From Oceaniferula marina (GTDB taxonomy: Bacteria > Verrucomicrobiota > Verrucomicrobiia > Verrucomicrobiales > Akkermansiaceae), in contig NZ_JACBAZ010000008.1 of the NCBI RefSeq assembly GCF_013391475.1, forward strand, positions 124,001-188,000: a stretch of DNA of 64,000 nt, read 5' to 3'. The position numbers and the translations under genes are program-made. The notes beneath the pieces were generated by a model. The model was not told the origin of the DNA and did no database searches. It was given only the letters and a program-made list of their open reading frames with translations. Below, one piece after another: positions 38,799 through 45,765 of the stretch (position 1 is the first letter of the stretch; each line of letters opens with the position of its first letter).

Positions 38799-39103
38799 CC
38801 TTATACCAAGTAGTAAACAGACGGGACGATAGCCGAGATGAATGAGTTCTTTGGTAAGGCACGACGAAGGAATGGTGCGGGCACCATGACTCAAACCATT
38901 CTCCCAGTTAAATTGGCAGAATGGTTTGAGTTTAAGATGATGAGTCAGTCAGCAAGCTGAACGGCAAGGAGGCACTGAATCTTTTAGATTTTACCGTTGT
39001 TGCGCGTCGGTTGCATAGCCCGCTATGCGCCTTCCTTGCGCCTAGTTAAAATCGAAAACCTTCAGTGCCATTCAGCCAATTTAACGGATCAAATGGTATA
39101 AGG
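38799..39103. repeat. structured non-coding repeat, compound copy (family also at 45357)
   Basis: A 305-bp block bounded by a perfect 10-bp inverted pair, CCTTATACCA and TGGTATAAGG. It is made of two parts. Part C (38799-38890, plus orientation) carries AAGGC.CGACGAAGGA and hub hairpin ATGGTGC-GG-GCACCAT. Part B (38892-39100, minus orientation) is a full copy: outer arms GTTAAATTGGC (38907-38917) with GCCAATTTAAC (39075-39085), long arms 38971-38993 with 39047-39069 (19 of 23 paired), and hub GCATAGC-CC-GCTATGC (39013-39028). A 14-bp perfect arm pair (38889-38902, 38918-38931) marks the junction. No open frame of note is present; the rest of the 521-bp gap is featureless. Confidence 0.7.
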
Positions 39104-39211
39104 AGAAACAAAGCCAAAGGAGTCATTCATACGGAACGCTCATGGATCACGCAGTGCTTTTCCAAATACCTCAACAACGATCAATCGTCTCGTCTGCTTT
39201 GCGGAGTGGTA

Positions 39212-40048
39212 TTATGGCACACGCGGGAACTTCGAGAAGTCAGGTTGACGTTTTTCGACAAAGGCATTTTTACCCTCCTTACCCTCTTCGCTCATGTAGT
39301 AAAGCATGGTGGCATTTCCAGCCAAATCAAGAAGTCCCATCTGGCCGTCGCAATCCGCATTGAGGGCAGCCTTCAGACAGCGGAGAGCGATCGGCGAGTG
39401 CTCAAGCATTTCACGGCACCACTGCACCGTTTCGGTTTCAAGTTCGGCCAGTGGCACCACGGTATTCACCAGCCCCATCTCAAGCGCCTGCTCCGCGTTG
39501 TATTGGCGACACAAGTACCAGATCTCACGAGCCTTTTTCTGTCCGACGATCCGTGACAGGTAACTCGAGCCCAATCCTCCGTCAAAGGACCCGACCTTCG
39601 GCCCGGTCTGGCCAAAGATGGCATTGTCGGCAGCAATCGACAAATCGCAGACCACATGCAAGACATGTCCACCTCCGATGGCATAACCAGCGACCATCGC
39701 GACCACGGGTTTCGGTAGGTTGCGAATCTTGCGTTGCACATCCAGAATATTCAGCCGAGGCACTCCGTCACCACCAATGTATCCGGCATGACCACGAACT
39801 TTTTGATCCCCTCCGGAACAAAACGCCTTGTCTCCCGCTCCCGTCAGGATGATCACACCCACTTCGGGGTCTTCGTGGGCGAGATCGAGCGATTTCAACA
39901 ACTCTTGGGTGGTCTCAGGGCGGAATGCATTACGCACCTCCGGCCGGTTGATTGTGATTTTGGCAATTTGGCCGTCTTCACTCTTTTCGTAAAGAACATC
40001 GGTAAAGTCATCAGGTTGGGCAGATTTCCACATGCCGAAATCATCCAT
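39212..40048 (-). CDS. menB: 1,4-dihydroxy-2-naphthoyl-CoA synthase
   Basis: A 278-residue crotonase-fold enzyme that closes the ring of o-succinylbenzoyl-CoA in menaquinone synthesis. Landmarks: [73 protein letters not shown] and [16 protein letters not shown]. These are specific to MenB within the crotonases. Start MDDFGMWKS is chosen; MWKSAQ at 40033 is also possible. menH lies 67 bp upstream on the same strand. Confidence 0.96.
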
Positions 40049-44883: not shown

Positions 44884-44949
44884 AAAGTTCTTTTTTTTCG
44901 GGAGTCGTCCTTGACATGCAGCGACTTAGCGTCGATAGGCCCCTCCGCC

Positions 44950-45357
44950 ATGAAGAAACTTCCATTACTTCTCAGCACCGCCTCCTTGATGTTTTTGACG
45001 CCCAGCGTCGCTAAAACAAACAAGACCGCACCTGATAAAGACAAAGAAGCCAAAGTGCTCAAGACCGAGCACGGCAAGGCATCTTGGTATGAAATCAAGT
45101 GCAACGGAGGGACCCATACCGCGAGTGGCATTCCTCTCAAGGACCATGCCATGACAGCGGCCCACAAAACCCTGCCCATGGGCACCAAAGTGCGCGTCAC
45201 CAATAAGCGTAACGGCAAGTCCGTTGTGGTTAAAATCACCGACCGCGGGCCATACATCAAGGGCCGAGTCATTGACGTCACCAAAGGGGCCGCCAAAAAA
45301 CTCGATTTCATCAGAACCGGCGTAGTCCACTGCAAAGTCGAAGTCCTCGAAGACTAA
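44950..45357 (+). CDS. RlpA-like septal ring lytic transglycosylase
   Basis: A 135-residue exported protein (signal MKKLPLLLSTASLMFLTPSV). The double-psi beta-barrel domain reads GKASWYEIKCNGGTHTASGI, AAHKTLPMGTKVRVTN and KITDRGPYIKGRVIDV, with conserved Asp and His. It cleaves glycan strands that lack stem peptides in characterised members. There is no SPOR domain and no clear lipobox, so it is the minimal form. The stop codon's last base is the first base of the repeat element at 45357. Confidence 0.87.
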   Translation: MKKLPLLLSTASLMFLTPSVAKTNKTAPDKDKEAKVLKTEHGKASWYEIKCNGGTHTASGIPLKDHAMTAAHKTLPMGTKVRVTNKRNGKSVVVKITDRGPYIKGRVIDVTKGAAKKLDFIRTGVVHCKVEVLED

Positions 45358-45574
45358 TACCATTTGAGTGGTTCGTTTGTCGGAATGGCGGTGTTCGTTT
45401 GGCCTTGAGTTCAAGGCGTGACAAAGGAATGTAGCGAGCTACATGACTGAGGAAAAACGCCGAAATCAAGCCAAAGAAATACCGCTTTTCATTCCCATCA
45501 GCTACGCTGACTAGCTTCCACCTCAAGCTCTTCACTATTTGTCCATTCCGATAAAATAACCGGGAGAATGGTAT
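45357..45574. repeat. structured non-coding repeat, full copy (family also at 38799)
   Basis: A 218-bp imperfect palindrome in plus orientation. Ends are ATACCATT (45357-45364) and AATGGTAT (45567-45574). Subterminal arms are CGGAATGG (45381-45388) and CCATTCCG (45543-45550). A long inner arm pair lies at 45388-45408 with 45466-45485. The central hub is ATGTAGC-GA-GCTACAT (45429-45444). Block order, end sequences, CAGC..GCTGACT and GGGAGAATGGT match part B at 38892-39100 while the inner stem bases differ. The remaining 190 bp to sixA hold a GACGGG-TT-CCCGTC hairpin at 45579-45592 and nothing else that I recognise. Confidence 0.75.
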
Positions 45575-45765
45575 AAACGACGGGTTCCCGTCTTGCGCAT
45601 AAGATCAGCAAAACAGACGGGAATGCTTGAGCCTGATGCTGTTGCATCTCGGCAAAGCAGCCATCTCTCGACTAAGCCCAGGCAGACGTGTCGACACACT
45701 GATCGCCTGCCTACCGACAGCCTAAAAGTTGTCTTAGGGCTCGTCGCTCTGCTGCGTGCACGCGC

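Follow-up and report, generated by a model that had tools for sequence, protein, structure and literature searches.

The window analysed here is a stretch of 64,000 nt from the genome of Oceaniferula marina. At 45358–45573, on the forward strand, it carries a full copy of a MITE-like element, 216 bp in length and 99.5 % identical to the consensus of its family (family A) over positions 1–216. The element is bounded by terminal inverted repeats of 31 bp (45358–45388 on the forward strand and 45543–45573 on the reverse), each matching the end pattern with 0 mismatches. Outside these repeats lies a target-site duplication, TAA, at 45355–45357 on the left and, as indicated by the sequence and by comparison of flanks, at 45574–45576 on the right. 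A repeat of 218 bp had been described at this position in an initial annotation; that element is real, with proper limits at 45358–45573 and the TAA duplication outside them. The left TAA is also the stop codon of an upstream ORF (44911–45357, RlpA-like as judged by eye), whose frame end is kept.

The 5′ side of the inner arm (45388–45408, forward strand) pairs with 45466–45485, as was evident from the fold and as the initial annotation had located it. The hub, or core, of the element has the form GGCGTGACAAAGGA-hairpin-GACTGAGGAAAAACGCC (45407–45468, forward strand) and was matched by model R1 (C8:169407–169468) and also by model R2; its hairpin, ATGTAGC-GA-GCTACAT, occupies 45429–45444 (forward strand) in both sequence and fold. 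A small side hairpin, CAGC-TAC-GCTG (45499–45509, forward strand), is situated in an asymmetric 3′ loop and is similar in family B; the box of which it forms part, CAGCTACGCTGACT (45499–45512), has a counterpart in B that reads CAGCTTGCTGACT. The only ORF of at least 20 aa wholly within the element encodes 23 aa (45443–45514), longer ORFs crossing the element's edge, which bears out the earlier statement that no coding frame lies inside. The ends, the CAGC..GCTGACT box, the pairing inner arms and the three hub hairpins described at that time were likewise all present on reading of the sequences and folds.

Comparison of the 218 bp stretch with the host genome by blastn yielded 45 matches, nine of which, the query included, were near full length with 94–100 % identity. 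The A element gave 13 further matches, full or partial, at E≤1.2e–35. It is apparent that at least four related families (A–D) of non-coding elements of about 200 bp are present in this genome, with consensus lengths of 216 (A), 205 (B), 201 (C) and 201 bp (D), all starting with TACC and ending with GGTA. Model R1, which covers a core of 62 nt and was built from ten core sequences of the four families, produced 120 matches at E≤1, of which 115 reached E≤1.7e–06 (150 of 3635 candidates were scored). Two loci only had been named in advance as the outcome that would speak against a maintained fold; 115 strong core matches were found. Assigned by core letters, these comprise 61 D, 32 B, 10 C and 9 A elements and 3 others; assigned by halves, 55 D, 30 B, 12 A and 11 C elements and 7 that are mixed or nested. 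Both ends were located for 91 of the 115. The pattern for A and B ends matched 103 times, as against once for a reversed-pattern control. Six contigs (C2, C4, C12, C13, C16 and C21) terminate within A or B copies, and the copy numbers obtained from this draft are therefore probably underestimates.

Copies of one family differ from their own consensus by 0.5–2.9 % per site (82 copies near consensus length). The suggestion that copies keep the fold while changing the bases is thus true of families A, B, C and D compared with one another and of different species, but not of copies within one family. Four of the 115 core matches are chimeras in which halves of different families meet in the hub hairpin: one D|B, one E|D and two E|A (C6:213824, C4:768834, C2:603215 and C7:100073), E being a fifth family; they represent either recombination or misassembly at the hub. 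Very short forms were also observed, with paired A/B ends 82–106 bp apart and no room for a whole core and arms (C5:77655–77736, C2:721232–721313 and C8:69820–69925).

A second locus in the window, the block at 38799–39103, had been regarded as containing a related element as its part B. A related element, B, is indeed present there; the block proves to be a copy of family D with the B copy inside it, and extends to 39214. The left part of D, with most of its hub (ATGGTGC-GG-GCACCAT), lies at 38804–38891 (forward strand, 97.8 % identity to D consensus 1–89), and the right part at 39099–39211 (forward strand, 97.3 % to D consensus 89–201), mostly beyond the block as first drawn, which omits most of D's right half. 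Comparison of flanks identified a TTA duplication around D at 38801–38803 and 39212–39214. The B element, 205 bp in length and 98.5 % identical to its consensus, occupies 38894–39098 on the reverse strand, with TCA and TAA as its 3 bp flanks; its hub (GCATAGC-GG-GCTATGC) lies at 38989–39050 on the same strand (model R1 match, C8:162989–163050). The ATGGTGC hub belongs to D and not to B. The point of entry of B was a TAA of D, where intact D hubs read GACTAAGG. A second copy of this nested pair was found at C10:54193–54479. The block as a whole gave 101 matches in the host genome, many of them over one part of about 205 bp at 95–99 % identity.

The flanks of the bounded copies were examined for target-site duplications. 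Identical 3 bp flanks were observed in 70 of the 91 copies, compared with 30.7 expected when right flanks were shuffled among copies, and only 0–2 agreed when triplets were taken 1–7 bp further out. The duplicated triplets in the host genome are TAA, TTA, TCA and TGA, i.e. of the type TNA, and tandem D copies share a TTA junction (C3:313975 and C3:314179). Comparable results were obtained in other taxa: in the Verrucomicrobium strains, 20 of 25 copies had identical 3 bp flanks (6.6 expected), and in three groups of Saprospiraceae the figures were 9 of 10 (5.0 expected), 9 of 9 (4.6) and 5 of 6 (1.8; TAT in one case among the five). In a group with TGTRG ends, the identical flanks were of 4 bp, CTAG or CAAG, in 12 of 18 rows, some of which are repeated. 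Presence among relatives is patchy, with from 0 to 87 R1 matches within one genus under strict filters (genomes G022 and G034). Because identical TNA flanks occur so far above expectation, these sequences are mobile, MITE-like elements, and this reading is solid. Family A is accordingly a small, non-coding, MITE-like piece of mobile DNA with about 100 copies in the genome. All of the MITE features that were examined were found: the elements are short and non-coding (201–216 bp, with only the 23 aa ORF wholly inside A), have terminal inverted repeats (31 bp here, and script-found at many loci elsewhere) and duplicate their target sites both here and in other taxa; no autonomous partner was found in the searches described below. 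Mobility with target-site duplication, the nesting of one element in another and the fact that the bases change between families had all been missed in the initial annotation.

On one strand, the hub reads CAAGGCGCGANGARGGA-hairpin-GACYGANGAGCAACGC and forms a continuous helix in which three tandem G–A steps alternate with Watson–Crick pairs. From the hairpin outwards, the pairs are A–G, G–A, G–C, R–Y, A–G, G–A, N–N′, A–G, G–A, C–G and G–C. The seventh of these (p7, N–N′) was left free by the scan pattern and uses all four Watson–Crick types; among 46 cluster representatives it is CG in 16, GC in 13, AT in 7, TA in 1 and something else in 9, and it is Watson–Crick in 62 of the 70 rows that were recovered with models and not with the pattern. 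The first step shows a coupled non-canonical change, being A–G in 28 of the 46 and C–A in 16. Pairs p2, p5 and p6 are G–A in 44, 42 and 44 of the 46 clusters, respectively; most of the G–A letters were fixed by the scan pattern, so this constancy is partly built in for pattern-found loci. In the 70 model-found rows, G–A was present in 55–65 per pair for p2, p5, p6, p8 and p9 (61, 65 and 62 for the first three), the models also rewarding G–A, and the G–C pair adjoining the first step becomes C–G in 7 rows and T–A in 3. A standard kink-turn was considered and rejected, as two Watson–Crick pairs part the 3 nt bulge from the G–A steps.

An absence of covarying pairs had been named as the second outcome that would count against selection on a fold. 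For 38 rows (the 46 cluster representatives after removal of 8 by eye), pairing was present in 88.6 % of cells, compared with 64.3 % after shuffling, and the covariation score was 0.678 as against 0.215, a value reached in 0 of 500 shuffles; controls in which the alignment was slid gave at most 0.152. An alignment of 91 model-aligned rows, in which the structure is favoured and a few of the rows are weak or truncated, gave 0.697 as against 0.198, with slid controls of at most 0.127.

The distribution of the hub was determined by scanning one genome per species, from 84,980 species, with the hub pattern. At least 119 stretches were matched, and among the 80 matches listed were records from Verrucomicrobiales, Akkermansiaceae, Verrucomicrobium, Saprospiraceae and Chitinophagales, as well as from Nannocystineae, Polyangia and Labilithrix (Myxococcota), one Acidobacteria MAG and Massilia. 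Many of these records are MAGs, in which misbinning is possible; two Verrucomicrobium strains and the Massilia bear isolate-style strain names, and several MAGs carry the hub on many contigs. The hub, of about 50 nt, recurs, while the ends and arms around it vary from group to group; total lengths elsewhere are mostly near 155–170 bp or 203–242 bp, where the end-finding script worked. R1 matches were obtained in 22 of 58 genomes of relatives, the host's own included. Under strict filters, and with 18 candidates scored in each genome, R2 matched 20 of the 288 genomes searched in the phylum; the weakest of these matches, at an E value of about 1e–04, is perhaps due to chance. R2 also matched, at E≤0.001, 26 of 100 genomes from the family of one Saprospiraceae MAG, the MAG included, some with one weak match. 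A genome of the same order as the host (G052) shares an element family with Verrucomicrobium sp. BvORR034. In one small genome (G215), weak core-like hairpins were seen at two loci (L291 and L306), the first of which was also matched weakly on the opposite strand; they are either a diverged branch or chance resemblances.

No exact match to the hub pattern was found in viral contigs, and one Massilia copy had no match among plasmids. A search of the window against Rfam 15 gave no match at gathering scores, and a permissive search (E≤1) of six loci gave none over any hub. A sub-threshold match to the TPP riboswitch was noted at a locus of the Acidobacteria MAG (L177, 2097–2194; 50.6 bits, gathering score 54.3). 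No description of the hub was present in the titles, abstracts and passages of the open-access literature covered.

It was of interest to determine on which strand the fold is read. The G–A steps occur on one strand only; the opposite strand would show T–C mismatches. Mismatches in the inner arms were G–T in 35 cases and A–C in 5 (38 elements), and those in the ends were G–T in 24 and A–C in 2 (23 elements). With one element taken per cluster (25 clusters), the counts were 34 and 8, with 15 clusters for, 3 against and 7 even; outside the core, 37 loci from later searches gave 80 and 43. At the base of the hub stem, G–T occurs more often than any other pair (40 of 90) and A–C is absent. No G–T excess was seen in stem pairs s2–s6 (7 vs 11), and the other hub pairs gave only 12 vs 7. 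Strand-biased mutation was considered as the cause of the excess and rejected, C>T and G>A changes within families numbering 47 and 44, respectively, on the strand carrying the G–A steps. At paired sites within the host's own families there were 39 G–T and 26 A–C mismatches; relative to this polymorphism, the family-level ratio of 34 to 8 is a modest excess (Fisher P=0.033). The G–T excess is thus not mutational, and is a property more of families than of single copies. Since the opposite strand has T–C in place of G–A, and since G–T exceeds A–C outside the hub, the fold appears to be read on one strand. These data favour a fold formed by a single strand and required by source elements, without deciding between RNA and DNA. 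The proposal in the initial annotation that selection acts on a fold, in RNA or in single-stranded DNA, is supported by the strong covariation across taxa together with these strand-specific features.

The same data must be weighed against another possibility, namely that these are ordinary MITEs whose hub has been inherited passively, its pairing restored by template switching at quasi-palindromes without any selection on the fold. In its favour, template switching is known to improve palindromes, some of the core matches (4 of 115) are half-element chimeras with their junction at the hub, stem s2–s6 lacks a G–T excess, and copies depart from their consensus without strand bias. The tandem G–A steps, however, are non-palindromic and would be erased by template switching, yet p2, p5 and p6 persist; moreover, the hub is common to several phyla while the ends and arms are not, and p7 shows all four Watson–Crick types. 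Passive inheritance is judged to be unlikely.

The genomic placement of the copies bears on a possible role for the host. With neighbouring genes called crudely as ORFs, 47 of 87 copies fell in convergent intervals and 12 in divergent ones, and those in tandem settings comprise 15 sense and 13 antisense; 5 of the 31 gaps in the window itself are convergent on similar calls. This placement is consistent with promoters being avoided, and nothing in it points to a sense-strand role in the host. The elements might nonetheless be RNA elements that serve the host in 3′ regions, as terminators, RNase III sites or stabilizers of mRNA, and that are mobile only incidentally, in the manner of Correia/NEMIS. 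The excess between convergent genes would agree with this, as would the action of RNase III on Neisseria MITE transcripts described in passages of PMC2229807, but avoidance of promoters explains that excess equally well. Tandem settings show no preference for sense or antisense, copies within families differ without clear sign that the strand of the fold is kept (the 39 and 26 mismatches given above), and presence is patchy within genera. A host-serving role of this kind is considered quite improbable.

A further question concerns the enzyme that might mobilize these elements. In the host genome, a C-terminal remnant of an IS5-family transposase was found (66 aa; NCBIfam NF033580, E=2.8e–13, positions 197–256 of 258), a match that, being to a fragment, falls below the cut-off; PF13340 had no match there. 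Of 14 other genomes that bear hubs, 4 had PF13340 matches. The transposases concerned, at six loci in the 14 genomes, were rejected as candidates, none having a matching pair among the ends tried. One IS5-like element (L245, in genome G058) has ends of similar type and different sequence. No insertion sequence with the elements' own ends was seen by eye among the 103 A/B end-pattern matches listed for the host, nor in the Massilia genome, where there were 36 end matches and 15 in the control. Among 66 end pairs 0.5–2.6 kb apart, in draft genomes, no autonomous element was seen as far as inspection went; the one case examined in detail, a region with A ends 1.4 kb apart (L004), was set aside, as the ORFs between the ends were not transposase-like by eye. 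An IS4-like element (transposase of 430 aa; L061 1047–2451, contig C1), with 25 bp ends starting TCATTGGCG, was rejected as the mobilizer, as its ends are different and it sits inside a D copy. It abuts the same point in the ends of three C/D copies, the one in L061 and those at C14:28418 and C15:236; in L061, a duplication of the CTACTTGA type can be seen.

The target sites themselves are of the kind that IS5 derivatives (the IS1031, IS427 and IS5 groups) use, 3 nt or YTAR/CTAG: TNA in the host genome and in other taxa, and CTAG or CAAG in one further group. Parts of two published accounts point the same way, in that the targets duplicated by MITEPsy1, a mobile MITE that probably derives from IS5, are CTAG or YTAA (PMC3189936) and an IS5 element resembling IS427 and IS1031 has a 3 nt target site (PMC2516522). 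The mobilizer may thus be an IS5-type transposase acting in trans.

Mobilization of a single-stranded DNA hairpin by a Y1 (HUH) transposase, in a system like REP/RAYT or TIRYT, was also considered. Y1_Tnp matches were present in all five hub-bearing genomes tested, a single-strand fold would suit an enzyme that works on single strands, and Y1 transposases with long inverted repeats alongside have been described, in a portion of PMC3733652. Against this, no hub was detected (R2, E≤5) in any of the 30 loci searched, out of 34 Y1 matches in the five genomes, with flanks of about 1.5 kb, and a check of 17 of these loci revealed no matching ends; on these results Y1/RAYT was rejected as the mobilizer. 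The elements also have clear target-site duplications. To our knowledge, Y1 transposition makes none. We regard this system as very improbable.

The explanation that we favour, and hold to be probable on balance, is that these sequences are non-autonomous, MITE-like transposons moved in trans by an IS5-type transposase, with the hub kept as a strand-specific fold that source copies need. An element of about 155–240 bp, whose long terminal inverted repeats are not the same in all groups of genomes, inserts at TNA (in other taxa also at CTAG or CAAG) and duplicates its target, as the flanks show. An IS5-family DDE transposase would act on the ends in trans; in the host genome, only the C-terminal remnant of one was seen. 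The hub of about 50 nt, common to all families found, other phyla included, and covarying at its Watson–Crick positions, would present a fold that is probably read on one strand. It may be kept since a source element needs it in order to spread, perhaps bound by a putative factor, and may act as RNA (somewhat more likely) or as single-stranded DNA; single inserted copies appear to drift. We would also put forward, as a possibility on the improbable side, that these are transposon parasites that cross phyla, their ends adapted to whichever IS5-type transposase is available and their spread driven by the folded hub as RNA or single-stranded DNA. If so, transposition would include a step that involves the element's own structured RNA or hairpin; likewise, if the core is needed in cis, there would be small bacterial transposons that depend on a structured RNA or a single-stranded hairpin. 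From the point of view of annotation, this is a common repeat without an Rfam family, occurring as it does in about a quarter of the genomes from the Saprospiraceae family mentioned above (26 of 100), and a covariance model would be of help.

Among the known systems, integron attC sites are R′/R″ core sites next to cassettes and IntI; the duplicated targets and dispersed copies seen here argue against them. The elements resemble Rfam families in being structured, with covarying pairs, and match none of them, in the window at gathering scores and at six loci at E≤1. The GTAG/CGTC REPs and the repeats of RAYT and TIRYT systems are likewise dispersed palindromes, found in many phyla and mainly downstream of genes; according to the sections of PMC3733652 that treat them, however, REPs are of 20–40 bp with an unpaired GTAG or CGTC tag at one end, whereas the present elements are of about 200 bp and have duplicated targets. 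The GTAG of family A is inside the hub stem and is not an end tag, and the Y1 loci searched had no hub nearby; thus neither an end-tagged repeat of 20–40 bp nor a Y1 gene flanked by the repeats was seen.

Closer likenesses exist with the Correia/NEMIS, ERIC, RUP and YPAL repeats. As described in parts of PMC2229807, these are of 100–200 bp, mostly with inverted ends, their transcripts are predicted to form long stems with A–G and U–U mispairs, and they have TA termini like the families of the host genome; they are described there per genus or group, while the present core crosses phyla. The TA termini are present in the host genome (TACC..GGTA), and the ends in other taxa mostly differ, lacking the initial TA. 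Correia, ERIC and RUP elements duplicate 2 bp, TA; the duplication observed here is instead of 3 bp, TNA (TCA and TGA included), or of 4 bp, CTAG.

The nearest comparison is with MITEPsy1 and other IS5-type MITEs, which, in the passages of PMC3189936 that concern them, are also short and non-coding, have inverted ends, are thought to be moved in trans and duplicate CTAG or YTAA. MITEPsy1 is of 100 nt and has nearly the ends of a resident insertion sequence, ISPsy2, whereas no resident insertion sequence with the same ends was found for the present elements. These have, in addition, an internal folded core common to several phyla. The conserved folded middle, with ends that differ, is the unusual feature of these elements: in a MITE, the ends would be expected to persist and the middle to be lost, and here it is the middle that lasts across bacterial phyla.
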